A stretch of 39,661 bases of DNA, from positions 1-39,661 of IMG/VR virus record IMGVR_UViG_3300025669_000089. One strand, written 5' to 3'. The notes beneath the pieces are model-generated. The model made no database searches. It was given only the letters and a program-made list of their open reading frames with translations, and was not told where the DNA came from. A program made the translations under genes and the position numbers. Origin of the DNA: a virus. This document shows, in pieces, positions 1,399 through 38,842 of the stretch. How positions within the stretch are numbered: position 1 is the stretch's first letter; every line of letters begins with the position of its first letter.

Positions 1399-1432
1399 GC
1401 AGCCCGCTATGCAATACACATCAACGGGCTGC
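1399..1432 (-). terminator. Intrinsic terminator after the late operon and structured RNA
   Basis: On the minus strand an 8-bp GC-rich stem (GCAGCCCG pairing with CGGGCTGC, positions 1432-1425 with 1406-1399) encloses an 18-nt loop and is followed by TGTTTTTCTTA. Stem plus U-tract is the classic rho-independent layout. It sits after the 1,923-residue virion gene and immediately after the predicted structured RNA. Confidence 0.65.
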
Positions 1433-1433
1433 C

Positions 1434-1560
1434 TGAGGTGAACCACCGTCGTGCAACGGAGGAACTTCTAATAGTGGCCTGATTATAGCTCAGGCGGGCT
1501 TTGCCGGCTTACTATCGGTCCACCGGCATCTTCCAGGCTGAATCGTTTACGTTCACCTCA
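1434..1560 (-). ncRNA. Predicted structured RNA closed by a 10-bp helix, with a possible pseudoknot
   Basis: A perfect 10-bp inverted repeat (TGAGGTGAAC, 1560-1551, with 1443-1434) closes a 127-nt domain. Inside, reading the minus strand, are hairpins TGCCGG/CCGGCA (1528-1523 with 1507-1502), GCCTGA/TCAGGC (1495-1490 with 1482-1477) and CCGT/ACGG (1459-1456 with 1449-1446). GATAGT in the first loop (1516-1511) can pair with ACTATT (1475-1470), giving a pseudoknot with one G-U pair. The intrinsic terminator follows two nucleotides later, which favours the minus strand as the RNA strand. No supported reading frame covers it. It matches no RNA class I can name. The pairing is found by eye, not by folding software. 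Confidence 0.45.
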
Positions 1561-1822: not shown

Positions 1823-4800
1823 TTATGGCAGCCGCCTGCGTATACGCTGATAGATGCGTTTTCGCTGGGGATCGTTTGTGGTTTTCTCCAGTGCTTCATA
1901 ATCAGTTTGAAGTTGCGTCGCCACCTTATTGAATCGGGTCCGCATAGCTCTTTCCTTGGGCGTGATCTTCTTGGAGGCGAACTTTCTATTGAGCGTGTCC
2001 CTGGCCTTGTAGAACTTGGTGAGCTGGTCTCTGGGTGAATTGGGTTCTCGCATGAACAGTGTACCGAACACAGGTATATCGCTGTAATTCCGTGACCCCT
2101 GCTGTGAGCCGGAAATCATCCCCCAACCCCTGGCGAACCTACGGAACAAACCGCCCGAGTAACTATCAATCAGATACTCAGTGCGGGATGGTGACATATT
2201 CAGGGCCCTGCCGATTGCTTTCATAGTATCCGTGGTGTACCTGCCGTACTGATCCTCGTCAAGCAAGTGCATTGTGCCAGGCGGAACGATAGGCCGGCCT
2301 GCCCAGTCCTTATTCCGCATAACGTCTACCACAGGCCCAGCCAGTGCCATGCCCGTAATGATATTGCGAGAGCCGAACGGATTGGACTGGTCGAGCATTT
2401 CAACCAGATCATCCGGCAAGGATGTCGGATCTTTCCGGTATGCCGCATCGACTGCGGCAACAGGCAGAGAGGCAAAGACGTGGCCCACCTGGAACGGCAC
2501 CGGCAGGCGCACAACCGTATCAGTTCCGGGCGCTCTAAAGTGCATGTAGTTTACCCGCTCGAAGTCTGCCATGTTCTTCCACCAGTCCTCATCACGATAG
2601 GCATACCACAGGCCGAGTGCTGGGATGGTCAAAGTCCCTATGGCCATAGCCGCCGCACGTCCCCGCGTCTTGGGATCTGCAAAGGTACGGAATATTTTCT
2701 GTGGGCCCTGGATATTGGCATTGTAGAACGGGAATACCTGATTCAACACCTTGGCAATTTTGCCGTGCCGCGTAAAGTTCGTTGTGACATCCTGGGCAGC
2801 ATTGAGCGCAAACAAAGAAGCATTAAGTGTCCCCTTACCGAACTTCTCCTCACCGACCTTTAGGGCTGCCTCGAACTCTGCGATCCTCACGCCAGACTCG
2901 GTCACACTGAATAGTTCCCGAGCCGCCTGTATTGGGTGTGCTACGGTCTTGATGACGTACTTACCCATTTTTGTACGGTCCAGCAACATCTCGGCACGCA
3001 GGTTCTTGGCTGCTACACGGTCGTGCATGAGCTGGCCGGACATTTCGCCACCAAGAGCTTTGAAGTGTCGCGCCGCTTCAGTCCCCCGGATATCTGAAAC
3101 AACACCCCTGGCTGCTGAGATCGCGCCACCTTTTGCGTGTTCTGCCGTCACCCCAAAGGTCGAAGCATCTCGCACAAAGTTACGAATCAGGCCAAAGCCG
3201 GGATTCAATCCTGTTGCTCCCAGTCGTCGTAATCGTGTAGCGCCACCAACTGTAGCGTTTAGCCATGGAGGCAATGAGTATTGATCTAAAGCCATAACGG
3301 TCTGGAATACGTCCTTATCGAGCTGAATGAATTCGCGTTTGCCCTCGGCATTGATAATGGGAATGATATTGTCCTTACCCCAGTACTGGGCAGCGTTGGA
3401 GTAAACCGTCAACATTTCATCCCATCTTTCTTTGAGTGCTTCAGGATCTACGTCAGGTAGGTCGCCCAGGTCGATCCCAAGCTTATCTTCGATGATTTTA
3501 AGAACGTCGCCTTTGATCTGTTCTACGGAGAAATTGGTCGCCGTCCGGGGCGTGGGTACTTTTTCGCCAAACTGATGCCCGCCAGGCTGATTGACTACCT
3601 TGGCTATCGCCTGGGCAACCATTGTCTTATGCGCGATCGAGATAAGCCTTTCGGCCTGCGTTAACATGGCCTCTATTGGTTCCATGAACTCTCGGCCACT
3701 GCCAGACAAGACATTGATCGGCTTGGAGTGCGTGCGGAATCCCTTTCCGGATCCGCTTGCGATTTTGACTTCACCCCAATCAAAGATCCGTAAGAACGGA
3801 ATATAAACCGGGTTTAGCGTCCTAATGGTCTTGATTGTATCCTCGCTTATGGCGCCTGCTTCACCCATGTAATCCAACACGCGGCCATTCCATGAAGTTA
3901 CCTCGTCAAGCACGTCATCGTAAATCTTGGCGGTTTCATCGCTGGTATCTTTGATCACAAACTCGGCATCAGCCTTGGATATGCCAGGGTTCTTGCCCCG
4001 CCTTATCAGATCGAGAGCTCGCGTGGCCACAGCGTACTGCACCCATTCTGTGATGTGGTCAATGGGCTTGAATATCTCGGTCAGGCCGGGCCCGGTAGTG
4101 TAGCCAGATAGGTTCGTCGTGCTGTGTAGAATGAACTTCCGTGCCACTGCAGGCGCCTTATCAGCATATGCAACGGCCAAGGTGTACGGGTTACGCTCCG
4201 GGGGCAGATCAAACAGGCCAGCCGTAATGAGTCGCCGTTTTAGGGGCGCCAGTTCGTCGATAAAGTTTACCTCAGTCCACAGGCTTGCCCGCTCCATGCG
4301 TTCGCCTAGCGTTCCCCTGAATGGCTTGCGGTTGATCATGGAAGATATCCGGCCCCTCGCGCCCTGGTGCCTCCATGTGCTGATCATCTGTCGCAACTTG
4401 TTCAGATTGCGGTTTGTGTCTGGGTGTTTGGGCAGGAACACATCCTTGAACCATTTGTCCATGTTGGGTGCAATGCTCGCAGTGTCGCCACCTGTTAGGT
4501 ATTCCCGCATGTACTCGGCCCAACCCTCAGACTTGTAGCCGCCCACGGGCTTGCGGTTGCCGTACAGGGCAACGCCCATATCGAACAGTTCCTTGCCGAT
4601 CTCGGTGCTGGCTGGGTGCTTGCTGATCCTATCCCCATCGATGTGGTCTATGTGGTGCCCTACCTCATGCGTGGCTGTGGTGATGGAACGGACATCCTGC
4701 AACCGGATACTTTTGCCAAACGGATGATACCAGCCAAGTGCATGGGCCATCCTGAACGTTGCCTTGCCGCGGATAGGTATCTGGAATGCACGCTGGGCAA

Positions 4801-7594
4801 ATGCGATGATATCACGCGATGGGACGGGCTTGACGGGGCCGCCGGCGTCCATGGCCACCTTGATCCGGCCACGGTCGATTTCGTTCTGTGATACCACTGT
4901 CGAGGGTGAGGACTCATCGCCCAGGTAGGCCGGGCTTTTCTCTCGGGGCCATCTGGCATCGGCCTCTATATCGCTCTGGAAGTCTGCTTGGGGCTCAGTA
5001 CCAGCCCATGCGTAAACAGGCGTCTTGTCCTGCATGAAGTTTTTGTCAACGATCTTGGCGTTTACCATGCGGCCCAGAACCTCGGCGTTCTCCTTGCTTG
5101 CTTCCTTGCTGCCTGTCCACTGCTCGGCCGTCATCCACGTTCGGGCCGGGAGTTTGTTGCCCAGGATGAATAATGGGCTTCTTGACGCAACGTCGTCTGT
5201 CCTCAACAGGTCTGCATTGACCAGCATCTGTGCCAACTGTTGGGGAAAGGGCTTACTGCCTGCCGATACACGCACGGGCGTTTTCTGTGCAACGTTGGGT
5301 GTCAGTACGGTACTGACTGCATTCACGGGCATGGTTACGGTTTGCGTCTGGCCCTTGGGGCTCCGGGTCAATATGGGCCGTAGTTCATCGCCTTCTGGCA
5401 GGAACATCTTGATCTTTGTTTCGCCCCTCGATGCGTGCAGCTCCAGGGCATCTTTGAGGAAATTCGAGTTGACGGCAACTACCTGCTCTGCCCCGTCCTT
5501 CACGCCGATCTGCGCTGCGATCCCCGCCTCATGGCCTGCACTGGCAAAGCCTATGGTTCCGTCAGGGTTCTTCATGATGGCGATTGTGGGTATTTCGCCC
5601 TTACCGCTCGGCGCGGCTACTGCTGCCTGTCTGACCTGCTGCCAGGTCTTGCGAGTGTTCAACTCGATTCCATCGGCTGCCTTGACCTCGGGAATGATTG
5701 CCTTGTAGTCTGGGAAGTTGCCCCGCGTTTCGTCCTTTGCGAGTGTCCGTTGCTTCAGCTCACCCTTCTTGAACGCCGCCGGTTCGTCGTAGAGTCCGTC
5801 CGGGCCCCAATCGCCTTTGAGGATGTACGCACGCTGTCCGTCCGTGACGACAAGGTCCTTACCCTTGACCAGGGCCCCGTCAACTGCATACCTGGAGGCC
5901 TTTTTAGCCTTGCCCTTACCGAGCCTACTGAACAGGTTCTTGGCTGGTGCAGGATATGACGGGGTAGCGATTGCGGGGGGCTTTCCGGGCTTGGTCTTGG
6001 CCAATGGCTTTAGCTTGGCCATTTCGGATGCGACCTTAGCCATCGCCTTCTCATTGCCTGGCAGTGCAAACAGTTGAGCGTCTGGTATGCCGGTGGGGAA
6101 CTCAACTGCCACAGTATGGTAGGCTTCGTCCACCTTGTCCGCATCTTTGAATGGCTTTGTTGTTAGTTTCGTACTTGGGTCATTCGCCCACGCCTGGTAA
6201 TCCGTTATGATTTCGTTGGCTTGTTCTCGGGAAAGAGCTGTAACTGTTTCCCCCGGTTGTTGCGTATCAATTGGCTGAGGCGTAATCGGGGCCGGGGCCG
6301 TCGGACTGACGGGCGGCGGGGTGATTTGCGTGGCATCTGGTGTCCCCTTTAGTTGTAGTTGCTGCTCTTGCGGTTGCAATTGCTGGATGATTGCCGCACT
6401 CTTCTGGTTAGCTGGAACTCCGGCAGCCTTGGCCCTGGCCTGGATCTGCTTTCGGGAGAGCTTTGTCAGGTCAGTCGTCGGCTGTTTCGGTGGTTGCTGC
6501 GCCAGCGGGATCGGCGCGGGAGGCGTACCCGGTTGCCTGGTGGCCAGGGGGTGCTTTCCGAAGTCCTTTAATGGCGGTTGCTTCACCTTTTTGGGAGTAA
6601 CCCGCTTTGGATCCAAACCTTGATATTTCACCCGGACGGCATCCCATCTGGTACGATCCCCTGTCTTTTTCCAGTGTTTTATTGCTGCATCGATCTCGGC
6701 CCGGGCACTCTGCCGCGTTACCTGCGCGTGGGTCTTGGCCGTTTTAGCGGCGCGCAGGCCCCGAACGAACCGGCCCAGTTTCTCCACTCCGAGCTCGCCG
6801 GCGCCGAACATGACACCAATCCCGAACTCGAAGCTGATACCCCCGTAATCCACGGGCTCGTTGTTTATGACCTTGTCCGAGAATTCCTCACCAGCCTTGC
6901 GTGTGGCAAAGGTCAGGCCACTGCCCGCCATCACCTTGAGTGCCCGCTTGCCCGCGATCCGCTTGATCACTGGGGCCGCTATCTTGCCCGCTGTACTGAT
7001 CCCGGTCATGAAATTAGCGATATCTCCGGCTGCAATATCCTGCTTTTTGGGCTTGAACCCCGTCATATGGTCAACAATGCCCGCCAAACTGTCGATCTTG
7101 CCGCCACTGACCCGCTTGGCTGCAGCATCGGCCACACCCAGAGTAAGCCCGGAGACGGCCTCTGTGCCCGTATGAAGGATACCCTTGCCGATGGTCCTAA
7201 ATGGAGTCTCTTCCGCCCCCAGCGGTCGCGTAGGAGCCGGAACAGGACGTGGGCGGCCTGGTGCACCGAAGAGTGCCGTACCAATATCTGCCGGCGGTGG
7301 AGGGGCCTGCTGGATCGTCTCCTGGCCTCGGGGGGCTAGGGGGTCAACAGTGACCGCTGATCCGGTGTCAGTAACGGGGATGTCCTGGCCAGCTACGCGG
7401 ATGGTAGGTGTGCCAGGTCTGGGCATGAGGGCTGCCGTGGCGTTCTTGAGTACATCGGGGTCAATACCGGCGCCTGCTAACTCTACCGGGGCATCCAGGG
7501 AATACCTGCTGGCCTGGGGAGTTGAAGGGCCGGCGTCAATGGAATATTTACTGGCAGGCTGCTCGGCGTCCAGTGAGTACTTGCTGATAGCCAT
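1823..7594 (-). CDS. Giant polyvalent virion protein with SAP-like, clamp-like, zincin-like and LPD38-like segments
   Basis: 1,923 residues; GAGGT precedes the ATG at 7594. Residues 1-40 carry three (S)KYSLDA-type repeats, with a fourth relative (SRYAVDG) near 570. Residues about 140-250 are Gly/Ala-rich and amphipathic. A SAP-like helix pair (about 371-400) is followed by a Pro/Gln linker. Residues about 575-758 resemble bacterial DnaN: VTDGQR, FPDY at 627-630, and a final MPVN. HEVGH at 976-980 with GWAE at 1024-1027 is a zincin-type metal site. Residues about 1600-1760 resemble LPD38, with a hydrophobic stretch and WW pair. Such polyvalent proteins are typically packaged and injected. Its place at the end of the late operon fits an ejection protein. 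Domain names are by eye; the overall class is confident and the clamp call is moderate. Confidence 0.8.
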   Translation of the reverse strand: MAISKYSLDAEQPASKYSIDAGPSTPQASRYSLDAPVELAGAGIDPDVLKNATAALMPRPGTPTIRVAGQDIPVTDTGSAVTVDPLAPRGQETIQQAPPPPADIGTALFGAPGRPRPVPAPTRPLGAEETPFRTIGKGILHTGTEAVSGLTLGVADAAAKRVSGGKIDSLAGIVDHMTGFKPKKQDIAAGDIANFMTGISTAGKIAAPVIKRIAGKRALKVMAGSGLTFATRKAGEEFSDKVINNEPVDYGGISFEFGIGVMFGAGELGVEKLGRFVRGLRAAKTAKTHAQVTRQSARAEIDAAIKHWKKTGDRTRWDAVRVKYQGLDPKRVTPKKVKQPPLKDFGKHPLATRQPGTPPAPIPLAQQPPKQPTTDLTKLSRKQIQARAKAAGVPANQKSAAIIQQLQPQEQQLQLKGTPDATQITPPPVSPTAPAPITPQPIDTQQPGETVTALSREQANEIITDYQAWANDPSTKLTTKPFKDADKVDEAYHTVAVEFPTGIPDAQLFALPGNEKAMAKVASEMAKLKPLAKTKPGKPPAIATPSYPAPAKNLFSRLGKGKAKKASRYAVDGALVKGKDLVVTDGQRAYILKGDWGPDGLYDEPAAFKKGELKQRTLAKDETRGNFPDYKAIIPEVKAADGIELNTRKTWQQVRQAAVAAPSGKGEIPTIAIMKNPDGTIGFASAGHEAGIAAQIGVKDGAEQVVAVNSNFLKDALELHASRGETKIKMFLPEGDELRPILTRSPKGQTQTVTMPVNAVSTVLTPNVAQKTPVRVSAGSKPFPQQLAQMLVNADLLRTDDVASRSPLFILGNKLPARTWMTAEQWTGSKEASKENAEVLGRMVNAKIVDKNFMQDKTPVYAWAGTEPQADFQSDIEADARWPREKSPAYLGDESSPSTVVSQNEIDRGRIKVAMDAGGPVKPVPSRDIIAFAQRAFQIPIRGKATFRMAHALGWYHPFGKSIRLQDVRSITTATHEVGHHIDHIDGDRISKHPASTEIGKELFDMGVALYGNRKPVGGYKSEGWAEYMREYLTGGDTASIAPNMDKWFKDVFLPKHPDTNRNLNKLRQMISTWRHQGARGRISSMINRKPFRGTLGERMERASLWTEVNFIDELAPLKRRLITAGLFDLPPERNPYTLAVAYADKAPAVARKFILHSTTNLSGYTTGPGLTEIFKPIDHITEWVQYAVATRALDLIRRGKNPGISKADAEFVIKDTSDETAKIYDDVLDEVTSWNGRVLDYMGEAGAISEDTIKTIRTLNPVYIPFLRIFDWGEVKIASGSGKGFRTHSKPINVLSGSGREFMEPIEAMLTQAERLISIAHKTMVAQAIAKVVNQPGGHQFGEKVPTPRTATNFSVEQIKGDVLKIIEDKLGIDLGDLPDVDPEALKERWDEMLTVYSNAAQYWGKDNIIPIINAEGKREFIQLDKDVFQTVMALDQYSLPPWLNATVGGATRLRRLGATGLNPGFGLIRNFVRDASTFGVTAEHAKGGAISAARGVVSDIRGTEAARHFKALGGEMSGQLMHDRVAAKNLRAEMLLDRTKMGKYVIKTVAHPIQAARELFSVTESGVRIAEFEAALKVGEEKFGKGTLNASLFALNAAQDVTTNFTRHGKIAKVLNQVFPFYNANIQGPQKIFRTFADPKTRGRAAAMAIGTLTIPALGLWYAYRDEDWWKNMADFERVNYMHFRAPGTDTVVRLPVPFQVGHVFASLPVAAVDAAYRKDPTSLPDDLVEMLDQSNPFGSRNIITGMALAGPVVDVMRNKDWAGRPIVPPGTMHLLDEDQYGRYTTDTMKAIGRALNMSPSRTEYLIDSYSGGLFRRFARGWGMISGSQQGSRNYSDIPVFGTLFMREPNSPRDQLTKFYKARDTLNRKFASKKITPKERAMRTRFNKVATQLQTDYEALEKTTNDPQRKRIYQRIRRRLP

Positions 7595-9934: not shown

Positions 9935-12820
9935 CTATGTCCCACCTTTTTGGGATAAAACCATGCTTACTTTATGAAATGTTATTGTTCTACTCACCGC
10001 CCCACCACTTAATCTTTCAACCCATAATTCCACAGTGTCATTCGCTGCAACATCAATTATTCCAACACCACCAGTATTCCCGATTGTCTGATTCCCAGCA
10101 GTATCTCTATGAGCGGATGTGCATGGGAAATCAACCGTTCCGTTATTGGTATGAACGTGGAAATCGTATTCAATAGACACTGCTGATGTCTGTGAGAAGT
10201 CAATGCTGATAATGACTTCGTACCTACCTGCCTTAACTATAGTAATATGATCGTTCGTGTGATCCGGCGTAGCGTTGTTGCTTTCACCATCTATACTAAA
10301 TGCCGTTACTTGATAAAATGTGTCTTGGGCAGCAAGGGCCAAAGTACTGACTCCATCCTCATCGTAGATTTGAGCGAAAGGCAAACCTGATGCCCCGACA
10401 AATACTATATTCCCAGTACTATCCAACAAGCAATAATTTGTATTATCGTCACCAATCTTTGCGGAACCAACAACTTGCAAAGTTTCATCTGGCGTTGTCG
10501 TCCCAACCCCGACCTTGCCGTCAGCGGTTACTCTCATATGCTCTGTTGTACTTCCATCAGGGCTGAAATAAGTCTCAAAGCCCATTCCTACTCTCGCCCC
10601 ATTTGTCAATTCCGTAACGCTGGTAATCCTTCCGCCAATCCCGTCTGCTGCCGAACCGTCATTAGATCCAAATAATAATTGCGAGTTAACTTCCCCTATA
10701 CTTGTTACTGTATTTTTGCCACCCTCAACCTTTATCGTCCCTGTTACACTATCTGCGGCCTTTACGTGCAATAGTTCCTCTGCACTCCCAGTACCAATCA
10801 AGACATTGCCATCTGCATCCACACTAACAGCAGGATTCGGCGTGCCATCAGATGCAGACAATTCAGAATGCCGGTGCAGGGCGTCTACCATGGAATCGTT
10901 AACCAGGGTTGTGTATGGCGACAGCATTGCGAGTATGATCGAGCCCGCTGCATTGGTTACGCCTATCTCGCTCGCCGTCCCTGTAATTGTCGCCAGGACA
11001 GGATCGACGCCTGTAGAACCTATGGGTAGCTGCCCGTTCGTCGCCTGGGCTAAGACTGTAACATCTCCAGTACCAGAACCAACCATCAACCCGCCATCTG
11101 TCAACGTTGCAAGGCCAGTACCACCAGAGGTTACGTCAAGCGGATCTCCAAGGACAAGAGTGTCGTCTATCCAGGCTTTATTGCCCACTTCAAGGTCATT
11201 TTCCACAGCCAAGTCAGCCAAAGAGTCCAGGCCGTGGGGGGAGGTGTAGCTGGCGGAGGTGGCCACTACTTGGTGGTTAGAGCCTACGGCGTTGGACTCT
11301 GTTCCTGTTCCAGAATTATAAATCGAGTCTATTTCGGCTTGAGACAATGCTTTGTTGTAAATACGAACATCATCTATACTACCGTCAAAATAGTTGCCCG
11401 GCGAGGCGTCCTCTTGTCTTCCGATGGATAAATTATCAATAGTATCTAAAGCGTTATTTATGACATTTGTTCCAACTGATATACTATCAACAAACAACTC
11501 TCTATCTGTGAGAGAGCTAAACACTCCTACAATGTGGTGCCAGCTTCCATCGTTATAAGTGCCACTAGATGCTATTGAACTAGTATTAGTGGTGTTAAGT
11601 TGCCATCGTAAATAAGCAAAGCCTCCTGATATAATTTCAATACCGTATTTTGAATTAGCGGAGTTGTTTCCTTGCGACAATACAGCGCTAGTTCCTCCAT
11701 CTGTCGTTTGTATCCAAGCAGCAAAACTGAATGGCAACAAACTTTGTTTTGCACCATTTATATTAACAGAATCACTACTTCCATTAAACGTCAGAGCCTC
11801 ATTGATCTTTCCGGCTGTCGTCAATGCAGATGTGTTCTGTTGAGCAGTTCCGTCGTTCGCACCTTGCGTGTCAATAACATTGGTAGTGGCAAGATTGTCG
11901 TTCATCTTCCACTGTGACACCAGGCCAGAGATAGGCCCAGACGTCGACGTCACCCCGCCCAGGAAGGCCTGCTGGGAAACATAAAGGTCGCCGCTAACTG
12001 TTGCATCATTCGTGACAGTCAGATCGTTTCCAACGGAGGCGTCAGTCGTGATCGTTAGGTTATCGAAGGTCGGGCTTGCTCCCGTGTGAATATCCTGGGG
12101 CAATGCCAGGGTAATACTGCCCGCTGCATTTGTTACTGTGACCTGGTTTATTGCCCCGATGAGGACAGCCAATACCGGATCAGCCCCCGTCGAGCCTATG
12201 GGCAACTGCCCGTTCGTCGCCTGGCCAAGGACCGTTACAGGGGCCGCACCGGACCCCAGGACAATGCCGCCATCCGTCAATGAAGCGGCACCCGTCCCGC
12301 CCTTGCTGACAGCGAGCGGATCCACTATGCCAATCTTGACAGTCCCATCACCAACGTCAGTAACGCTAATTTCCAAATCGGTCCCGGCAATCCACTGCGT
12401 CAAATCATCGACCGAAGTGAGTTGCTTGTTTGCGTCAGTGGATGTAAGCCGGGATGCGGTCAGGCCGGATAATACCAGTCCGACAAGTGTTGCAATACCG
12501 GCGCTCGATAATGTGCTTTTTGTTGTCCAAGTGCCGGATTCTTTCAGTTGGATGAGGTACTCAGATGAGGATTCGCCGTTGAGCCTCCATGTGCCGTTGG
12601 GGTAATCGCCTGTCGCGTCCTTCTCGCCCAGATAGACAATGCCGCCTGGGATTATATCCAATAACAGGTTGATTCTTTCATGGATGTCATGTATGCGGAA
12701 CTCTTGCAGTTCACTTATCAACTCCGTGAGGTAATTGGCAAGCTCTTTCGGATCTCCACTTGTGATAGCTGGCACATCCAAAGGCAGCCTAACTTGCTCA
12801 TCTAGTTTTTCGATTGACAT
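9935..12820 (-). CDS. Long tail fibre with LamG-like and C1q-like domains
   Basis: 961 residues from the ATG at 12820. The frame is open further upstream, but that overlaps the sigma-like gene and GAGGAA precedes this ATG. The N-terminal 80 residues would attach to the tail (LPLDVPAITSGDPKELANYL). Two related modules (about 170-240 and 560-625) share the text ATNGQLPIGSTG and GGTG/TDGG motifs, typical of phage fibre spacer repeats. Residues about 300-503 form a LamG/concanavalin-like jelly roll (SQWKMNDN, LTFNGSSDSV, GSIDDVRIYNKALS). Residues about 805-960 resemble a C1q/TNF-like beta-sandwich, a common fibre tip. It probably recognises host surface glycans. Overlap with the upstream stop suggests coupled translation. 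Confidence 0.8.
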   Translation of the reverse strand: MSIEKLDEQVRLPLDVPAITSGDPKELANYLTELISELQEFRIHDIHERINLLLDIIPGGIVYLGEKDATGDYPNGTWRLNGESSSEYLIQLKESGTWTTKSTLSSAGIATLVGLVLSGLTASRLTSTDANKQLTSVDDLTQWIAGTDLEISVTDVGDGTVKIGIVDPLAVSKGGTGAASLTDGGIVLGSGAAPVTVLGQATNGQLPIGSTGADPVLAVLIGAINQVTVTNAAGSITLALPQDIHTGASPTFDNLTITTDASVGNDLTVTNDATVSGDLYVSQQAFLGGVTSTSGPISGLVSQWKMNDNLATTNVIDTQGANDGTAQQNTSALTTAGKINEALTFNGSSDSVNINGAKQSLLPFSFAAWIQTTDGGTSAVLSQGNNSANSKYGIEIISGGFAYLRWQLNTTNTSSIASSGTYNDGSWHHIVGVFSSLTDRELFVDSISVGTNVINNALDTIDNLSIGRQEDASPGNYFDGSIDDVRIYNKALSQAEIDSIYNSGTGTESNAVGSNHQVVATSASYTSPHGLDSLADLAVENDLEVGNKAWIDDTLVLGDPLDVTSGGTGLATLTDGGLMVGSGTGDVTVLAQATNGQLPIGSTGVDPVLATITGTASEIGVTNAAGSIILAMLSPYTTLVNDSMVDALHRHSELSASDGTPNPAVSVDADGNVLIGTGSAEELLHVKAADSVTGTIKVEGGKNTVTSIGEVNSQLLFGSNDGSAADGIGGRITSVTELTNGARVGMGFETYFSPDGSTTEHMRVTADGKVGVGTTTPDETLQVVGSAKIGDDNTNYCLLDSTGNIVFVGASGLPFAQIYDEDGVSTLALAAQDTFYQVTAFSIDGESNNATPDHTNDHITIVKAGRYEVIISIDFSQTSAVSIEYDFHVHTNNGTVDFPCTSAHRDTAGNQTIGNTGGVGIIDVAANDTVELWVERLSGGAVSRTITFHKVSMVLSQKGGT
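10930..11140 (-). repeat. Second copy of an internal fibre module
   Basis: This segment encodes TDGGLMVGSGTGDVTVLAQ followed by ATNGQLPIGSTG. It parallels the segment at 12090-12310, and the DNA is still recognisably similar (both carry TGCCCGTTCGTCGCCTGG). The duplication is inside one gene and flanks the LamG-like domain. Confidence 0.6.
12090..12310 (-). repeat. First copy of an internal fibre module
   Basis: It encodes TDGGIVLGSGAAPVTVLGQ and ATNGQLPIGSTG. It is the N-terminal member of a duplicated pair with 10930-11140. The two copies bracket the LamG-like insertion, suggesting that the domain was inserted between, or duplicated along with, spacer modules. Confidence 0.6.
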
Positions 12821-23424: not shown

Positions 23425-24267
23425 CTATGTTTTGTCGAACCTCCCAGCCAATACGTCGCGCTCGTGCGCATCAAATTCGTTGTCTGCCATTGCTGCAACG
23501 TTTGCATTTGTATTAACCGCACCATCACCACCAACCGCCGCTGCTGATCCGGGCTGTAGCCGGGCTGTAGCCGAGTTTTCGGCATATGCCTGGGCCGCTG
23601 TTTGGCCTGCTGCATTGGGCGGGGGCGGGGTGTTTGCTGTGGCTAACTGCATTTCTTGCTTGGCTATTTGATACGCAACGTCCTTTGCGCTTATTTCGTT
23701 TGGCTGCTGCTTAATCCACTGGACTAAGGCAGGGTTCTTGGTGATTGCTGATTTCATGTGTTCTGACATTGTTAATTGGCCGGTCGTTGGATCGACCTGG
23801 CCTACTACTTGTGCGTAATCTTGGTGTGTAGCGTCAAACAATCTTTGCTCTACACTCTGGAAACGTTCGTTATACGTTTTCCGCAATTCCGCATCACGGG
23901 CTCTGGCTGCCTCCAGGGGGACATAATCGTAACCATCCCATTCGCTGTAGGGATCTTCCTCTGTCGCCGCCTGGGGTGCGGGCTGTGCTGCGGTAGGCTG
24001 CTGTGGGGTTGCGGCCATCATCTGCACTTGCTGCTGCAGTTGCTGGTAATTGGCTTTAAGTTCCGCATTTTCTTGCTGGGTCTGCTGGAGTTGTTCGTTC
24101 ACATCGACCTGCGGTTCCTGCGGTGCATTTGCGTCAGTGGCGGGCTGAGCGGGGGTATCGCCGTTGGTTTGGTCAGGAGCAACCTGATCTTGCACCGGGT
24201 TGGGTTGGCCAGTGGCGGGCTGTGCTGAGGTATCGCCGTTTGCCAGTTGATCGTTGATTTCTGCCAT
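23425..24267 (-). CDS. Probable scaffolding protein
   Basis: 280 residues, acidic and extremely rich in Gln, Ala and Pro. Residues about 5-40 contain a repeat of the GDTSAQPATGQ/GDTPAQPATDA type. A coiled coil follows (QQTQQENAELKANYQQLQQQ). The C-terminus is helical and charged (AMADNEFDAHERDVLAGRFD). It lies just upstream of the capsid gene with a good Shine-Dalgarno (AAGAAGGGG), the typical place of a scaffold that guides procapsid assembly and is then removed. No protease is seen in this block. Confidence 0.75.
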   Translation of the reverse strand: MAEINDQLANGDTSAQPATGQPNPVQDQVAPDQTNGDTPAQPATDANAPQEPQVDVNEQLQQTQQENAELKANYQQLQQQVQMMAATPQQPTAAQPAPQAATEEDPYSEWDGYDYVPLEAARARDAELRKTYNERFQSVEQRLFDATHQDYAQVVGQVDPTTGQLTMSEHMKSAITKNPALVQWIKQQPNEISAKDVAYQIAKQEMQLATANTPPPPNAAGQTAAQAYAENSATARLQPGSAAAVGGDGAVNTNANVAAMADNEFDAHERDVLAGRFDKT

Positions 24268-29343: not shown

Positions 29344-29379
29344 GGGCCCGGATCACCGGCTAGCAGGCTCACCGGGCCC
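29344..29379 (-). terminator. GC-rich hairpin, possible attenuator or terminator
   Basis: On the minus strand an 8-bp stem (GGGCCCGG with CCGGGCCC) encloses a 20-nt loop and is followed by GTGCTTTTAC. The T-run is short, so termination would be partial. It lies between the barrel-like gene and the membrane-protein/TerS genes and would separate early from packaging expression. Confidence 0.45.
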
Positions 29380-29400
29380 TGTCTGTTGAAAGGTTCGTTA

Positions 29401-37833: not shown

Positions 37834-37980
37834 TGGTCGCCCCTTATATGATATGCCCGGGCCGGCGTGCTTAACAGCGCAACCTGAGAGGCAGGGGCCG
37901 GCCCAGGCGTTGTGAGTTGCATTGTAATAGGCTGCGCTATAATCATGACCGACACAATTACCGCATCTGTGTTGTGACAA

Positions 37981-38594: not shown

Positions 38595-38770
38595 AGGTAG
38601 AAATCAGCAAAACCGAAATCAAGATTACTGTCCCCATCGCTCCCCGTCCGTCCAAGTCGGGCAAAACCACGCTACTGGCATCGATCGCCGGAACGGAGTC
38701 TAAGGTACCTGGGCTGGTGTATGACGGCAAACAGGTCACGGTCGGCCTGAATGTCTACGTCCCCAAATAG
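38591..38770 (+). CDS. Small phage protein with probable non-ATG (ATA) start
   Basis: The protein VEISKTEIKITVPIAPRPSK followed by SGKTTLLASIAGTESKVPG and VGLNVYVPK matches a small phage family whose members start 'm.kieit...lkitvplAPR.SKSGk...iast.gn'. No ATG, GTG or TTG lies before this conserved part except a TTG at 38531 that extends far upstream without a Shine-Dalgarno. An ATA at 38591 overlaps the previous TAA (ATAA) exactly as ATGA pairs do elsewhere, and GGAAGG lies 9 nt upstream. The ATA start is therefore likely, but not proven. Confidence 0.5.
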   Translation: MKVEISKTEIKITVPIAPRPSKSGKTTLLASIAGTESKVPGLVYDGKQVTVGLNVYVPK

Positions 38771-38777
38771 CCGACAC

Positions 38778-38802
38778 CGGGCAGCGCTGGGGGGCCTGCC
38801 CG
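38778..38802 (+). terminator. Hairpin without U-tract
   Basis: CGGGCAG (38778-38784) and CTGCCCG (38796-38802) pair around an 11-nt loop in the gap between two rightward genes. No T-run follows, so it is more likely a processing or regulatory hairpin than an intrinsic terminator. Confidence 0.35.
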
Positions 38803-38842
38803 AGGTCAGTTATTTGGAAACGTCTATTGAAAGGGACTGATT

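Follow-up and report, generated by a model that had tools for sequence, protein, structure and literature searches.

We analyzed the IMG/VR virus record IMGVR_UViG_3300025669_000089 over its full length (39,661 bases, positions 1 to 39,661; hereafter the window). Genes for replication, packaging and the virion occupy the minus strand between about 37.6 and 1.8 kb. They encode a primase/helicase, terminase, portal, major head protein and tail-type proteins, and the last big gene of the late block (1823-7594) codes for an LPD38-domain protein of 1923 aa. A few rightward ORFs occupy the plus strand from 38.1 kb to the right end, where the segment 39366-39661 (+) is repetitive, encodes LGNGVTLGDG-like repeats and extends off the contig end. 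To the left of the LPD38 gene lie, in order and all on the minus strand, a putative 48-aa ORF (1571-1717), the RNA element described here, and ORFs of 64, 62, 139 and 108 aa. The putative 48-aa ORF has the Shine-Dalgarno (SD) sequence GAGGTGG and its stop is located 10 nt before the first helix of the element (P1), while the 64-aa ORF (1178-1372) is preceded by the SD-like sequence AGAAAGGG at 1385-1378 and starts 19 nt past the terminator T run of the element.

None of the four downstream ORFs matched Pfam at the curated cut-off or PHROGs (the 108-aa ORF was queried as 169-516 in Pfam), and PADLOC, the one search applied to the 48-aa ORF, returned no match for the ORFs of 48, 64, 62, 139 and 108 aa. 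Six ORFs of at least 20 aa overlap 1395-1562 and none of them spans the RNA: three are antisense (plus strand), one is a 78-aa ORF, and two are minus-strand ORFs of 30 and 22 aa. The 78-aa ORF lengthens the 64-aa ORF at its N-terminus and reaches into 1395-1562 only by this added part; the family searches among these six covered only the 64-aa, ATG-started version. These observations agree with the initial annotation, which had found no supported reading frame that explains the segment.

Two repeats were observed around the element. A 16-nt direct repeat carrying GAGGTGRAC is present at 1546-1561 and 1719-1734 (88% identical): the copy at 1719-1734 forms the SD of the putative 48-aa ORF, and the copy at 1546-1561 is part of P1, with no start codon nearby behind it. 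In addition, a 14-nt tandem repeat (2.8 copies, 1580-1617) lies immediately upstream of the element.

Helices, terminator and fold strength

The initial annotation had described a perfect 10-bp helix around three hairpins at 1399-1560; these coordinates are correct, and the strand, which was not stated, is the minus strand. Read from 1560 to 1434, helix P1 encloses the hairpins P2, P3 and P4. The 5' strand of P1, TGAGGTGAAC (1551-1560), resembles an extended SD sequence and pairs at 10 of 10 positions with the 3' strand, GTTCACCTCA (1434-1443). P2 (1502-1528) has 7 bp (1528-1522/1508-1502) and a 13-nt loop, P3 (1477-1495) has 6 bp (1495-1490/1482-1477) and a 7-nt loop, and P4 (1446-1459), near the 3' strand of P1, has 5 bp (1459-1455/1450-1446) and a 4-nt loop. 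A TATAAT sequence at 1487-1482 extends across the loop and the 3' arm of P3. With the terminator included, ensemble pair probabilities are 0.81-1.0 for P1, 0.88-1.0 for P2, 0.97-0.99 for P3 and 0.75-0.87 for P4.

The annotation had placed a terminator stem with T5 within two bases of this domain, and the stem indeed begins at the very next base, 1433. The terminator stem-loop (1399-1433, minus strand; about -22.5 kcal/mol, stem pair probabilities of 1.0) is followed by the tail TGTTTTT (1392-1398), with T5 at 1396-1392. The hairpin of -22.5 kcal/mol with its tail GTTTTTCT presents the signature of an intrinsic terminator. From P1 to the T run (1560-1392), the element fills 169 of the 198 nt that separate the flanking ORFs.

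A candidate pseudoknot had also been proposed. GATAGT in the P2 loop (1511-1516) and ACTATT in J3/4 (1470-1475), both on the minus strand, can form five Watson-Crick pairs and one G-U pair. When these segments were shuffled 5000 times, 621 shuffles reached at least five pairs. This candidate is therefore at chance level and we consider it unsupported.

We compared the predicted fold to shuffled sequences. For the core (P1-P4) with the terminator, the z-score is -4.72 and none of 200 shuffles folds as well, which favors an interpretation of the element as the end of a late transcript. The core alone folds only moderately better than shuffles (-46.4 kcal/mol vs. a shuffle mean of -34.4 kcal/mol; equaled by two of 300), and this counts against the same interpretation. 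The plus strand of 1399-1560 yields a z-score of -3.14 (1/200 shuffles as good) and has no U run. When 609 overlapping 130-nt segments of the minus strand are ranked by their folds, the element comes fourth and the three better ones are located in or across genes; the most extreme of all (23737-23866, minus strand; z = -6.4) lies inside a 280-aa ORF. Elsewhere in the window, a long hairpin was observed between plus-strand ORFs at about 38760-38826 (z = -3.7), whose outer arms pair fully in the minus-strand RNA through G-U pairs. Perfect 10-bp inverted repeats within 130 nt occur five times in the window, relative to a mean of 4.07 in 30 shuffles. Since such repeats are at chance level, the perfection of P1 is unremarkable by itself; the notable feature is the combination of helix, hairpins and terminator filling a single gap. 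Overall, the element is moderately supported as a structured RNA.

The terminator was further evaluated with screens of different stringency. The strict screen required six or more T among 8 positions and a hairpin of -14 kcal/mol or better. On both strands of the window, the terminator of the element was the only site that it returned, which also favors a late transcript end. Because eight shuffled windows yielded 0, 2, 0, 0, 2, 2, 1 and 1 sites, this count is weak evidence and the position of the terminator is the stronger argument. The relaxed screen identified 25 sites, inside the range of 18-43 found in shuffles. These 25 include a strong palindromic hairpin, GGGCCCGG...CCGGGCCC (about 29344-29380), which has T-rich tails on both strands and is located between ORFs, just ahead of the terminase genes. 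A scan with limited loop size did not list the terminator of the element. Finally, the terminator loop could pair with the beginning of the 64-aa ORF at -12.1 kcal/mol (35/1000 shuffles as good); as one of several tests, this idea was set aside.

Search for relatives of the element

The initial annotation could not name a matching RNA class, and this statement is upheld. Rfam 15 yielded no match at gathering score across the whole window, and the region 1200-1823 gave only two weak matches (E-values of 3.3 and 4), both on the plus strand and none on the minus strand. A blastn search of 1200-1822 against the phage collection returned short matches in 15 records, with a best E-value of 2. Among the titles and abstract openings listed by literature searches on small RNAs of phages, on late operons and on structured RNAs, none describes the element. 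We also searched for sequence patterns. The P1-gap-P1 pattern occurred in 12 stretches of IMG/VR viral contigs, all judged unrelated by eye, and the P2-loop/J3-4 pattern in 23 stretches of viral contigs and 10 of genome (GTDB) contigs, none of which had the flanking helices by eye. These pattern matches in IMG/VR and GTDB contigs look like chance occurrences.

A covariance model (R1) was built from the window sequence alone; such a single-sequence model is weak, so that its misses do not show absence. R1 matched the window itself (3.7e-40) and gave weak hits in three loci, which we rejected for their scores and locations: L097 (7755-7848; E = 0.44), where the hit falls within the region that matches LPD38, L155 (2609-2744; E = 0.1), which is a contig of Ferruginibacter, and L177 (E = 9.5). 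With this weak model, no convincing match was found in 99 loci plus the window, in further sets of 14 (five of them repeats), 33 and 33 loci (the last 33 being partly second stretches of records already covered), or in 50 whole records out of 96 viral relatives. The element is thus an orphan within the collections searched.

The relatives available for comparison are distant. Alignment searches (A1, A2, A4, A5) recovered LPD38 proteins with at most 47-49% identity, the closest viral contigs being L020, L100, L101 and L102. Single-protein searches with the LPD38 C-terminus and with the terminase recovered no relatives, and alignment A2 found none among genome contigs. With tblastn against phages, the 139-aa protein matched three records at an E-value of 1 and the 64-aa protein matched none. 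Several contigs end soon past the LPD38 gene (L100, L101 and L103) and others carry other genes downstream of it (L102, L105 and L021); both observations count against the element being a late transcript end. The same holds for the lack of any homologue, and hence of conservation and of covariation evidence in either direction, among these relatives and in the pattern searches of IMG/VR and genome contigs.

In L020 (47% LPD38 identity), a single small ORF and then a strong TTTT-bearing hairpin come after the LPD38 gene. This arrangement parallels a stop closing the LPD38 block and counts in favor of a late transcript end. A homologous RNA at this place in L020 was rejected: sequence and arrangement differ and R1 gave no match. 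The L020 region 5440-5587 contains a promoter-like TTGACA-17-GATAAT and an 11-bp helix, AGTCATGATAA/TTATCATGACT, which would cross a terminator-like hairpin, and small ORFs come next. Separately, L102 has a strongly folded gap at 11000-11165 (z = -6.5), in which a long hairpin leads into a run of T.

Possible roles of the element

We favor, tentatively and at a little short of even probability, the interpretation that a long leftward virion-gene transcript ends in this element, which would form its structured 3' end together with the terminator and have a candidate function. The annotation had likewise suggested the 3' end of a late operon, and the arrangement fits: the genes for terminase, portal, major head and LPD38 precede the element on its own strand, the LPD38 gene and the putative 48-aa ORF come last before it, a good terminator signature closes the block, and the next ORF, with its SD-like sequence, comes 19 nt past the T run. 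Structured 3' ends and intrinsic terminators of phage late operons come after virion genes and combine a GC-rich stem with a U run. The element resembles them in its position past virion genes and in its GC-rich stem with a U run, but differs in that a closed multi-hairpin domain adjoins the terminator and small ORFs of the same strand follow at once. From pairing potential, terminator signature, position and strand, we infer the following course of events. RNA polymerase, on ending the late block, would transcribe P1-P4, continue through the neighboring stem and the U run, and mostly terminate at about 1392. The closed domain with its directly adjoining terminator hairpin would shield the 3' end of the mRNA; both together may outlast its decay as a stable species of about 169 nt. 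Read-through transcripts would carry the small downstream ORFs (64, 62, 139 and 108 aa), so that the terminator would also set a lower dose of these ORFs.

The dependence of the 64-aa ORF on the element makes a cis-regulatory role a serious, though unlikely, rival. The 19-nt gap cannot fit an ordinary promoter, so this ORF needs either read-through or a promoter within or before the element. P1-P4 would then act as a sensor or antiterminator that gates entry into the 64-aa ORF and its followers, in the manner of an attenuator, a riboswitch or the put and EAR elements. The order of closed domain, terminator, SD and start codon within 190 nt is consistent with such gating, as are a possible alternative pairing of 7 bp, read from the sequence, between the P3 5' strand GCCTGAG and CTCAGGC at the P1/terminator junction, and a predicted fold of the read-through RNA in which the U run pairs with the SD region. 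However, the alternative pairing reaches only the lowest bases of the terminator stem, no strong minus-strand promoter was seen upstream, no homologues were found, the pseudoknot is at chance level and Rfam gave no riboswitch match. In the SAM-I riboswitch, P1 surrounds three hairpins, the P2 loop pairs with J3/4 and a terminator comes next. The element shares the P1 enclosing three hairpins, the possible P2-loop/J3/4 pairing and the adjoining terminator, but it has no SAM-family Rfam match, the SAM-I covariance model included, and its pseudoknot is at chance level. According to PMC11658703, put (HK022) and EAR (B. subtilis) are RNA elements used for antitermination. Like them, the element is a structured RNA that by hypothesis affects transcription past terminators, its activity being putative; it differs in that neither a sequence relation to them nor a promoter-proximal position is evident. 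It appears quite improbable that the four-helix domain represents an undescribed class of cis-regulatory RNA, placed in this phage where virion and accessory genes meet, that controls read-through of the late terminator and so times the genes beyond it.

Because the terminator lies 19 nt before a same-strand ORF, a cis-acting role through read-through is at least as likely as a discrete small RNA, which is what the initial annotation had envisaged. A trans-acting RNA with a length of about 169 nt, produced or processed as one unit, whose loops bind a protein or RNAs of the host or the phage, would account for the closed domain with its own terminator and for the loops and linkers, which leave up to 22 nt unpaired. 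Nevertheless, we found no sigma-70-like promoter on the minus strand ahead of the element, no homologue and no trans-target signal: four segments of at least 10 nt (among the six listed) did not pair better than their shuffled versions with the starts of 49 phage genes. Antisense targets among these gene starts were rejected on this basis; a trans-acting role is thus without support from target pairing and we regard it as decidedly unlikely. ToxIN, a type III toxin-antitoxin system, consists of toxI repeats, a stem-loop terminator and then toxN, which encodes a protein of 19.7 kDa, according to PMC3475682. The succession of RNA, stem-loop terminator and same-strand gene is similar here, but the element has no repeat array (tandem arrays were found at 1580-1617 and 1653-1669, both outside of it) and, in contrast to the 19.7-kDa ToxN, the 64-aa ORF has no family match in Pfam, PHROGs or PADLOC. 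That the terminator alone is functional, and that P1-P4 reflect incidental pairing within a short gap, seems highly improbable: inverted repeats near chance level (5 vs. 4.07), a core fold matched by 2/300 shuffles and three more extreme segments in or across genes are consistent with it, but the occupancy of the gap (169 of 198 nt) and the fold with the terminator (0/200) argue against it. Only a slight probability is given to a phage promoter inside the element serving the downstream genes, with TATAAT in P3 as the -10 element and the P3 palindrome as an operator rather than an RNA hairpin. Exact copies of the sequence CTGNGCTATAATCANG are confined to 1493-1478 (-) and 37932-37947 (+), with no other site under three mismatches; both sites are intergenic and the latter precedes rightward ORFs, so that the pair is possibly a phage promoter element. 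Against this, neither site has a good -35 hexamer at the usual spacing and the promoter scan omits the first site. The palindrome is not clearly repeated either (27 sites with up to three mismatches vs. 19.1 expected; zero mismatches at P3 only) and we rejected P3 as a repeated operator.

Taken together, the feature is real, correctly read and well placed as a late transcript end, and it is probably the end piece of that transcript, with a putative function. If the terminator alone matters, it is an ordinary one. If the domain is functional, it would be a singleton RNA, lacking any counterpart in Rfam and among the reachable phage relatives, and would constitute a compact test case for the ending of late transcripts and the dosing of genes past a terminator.
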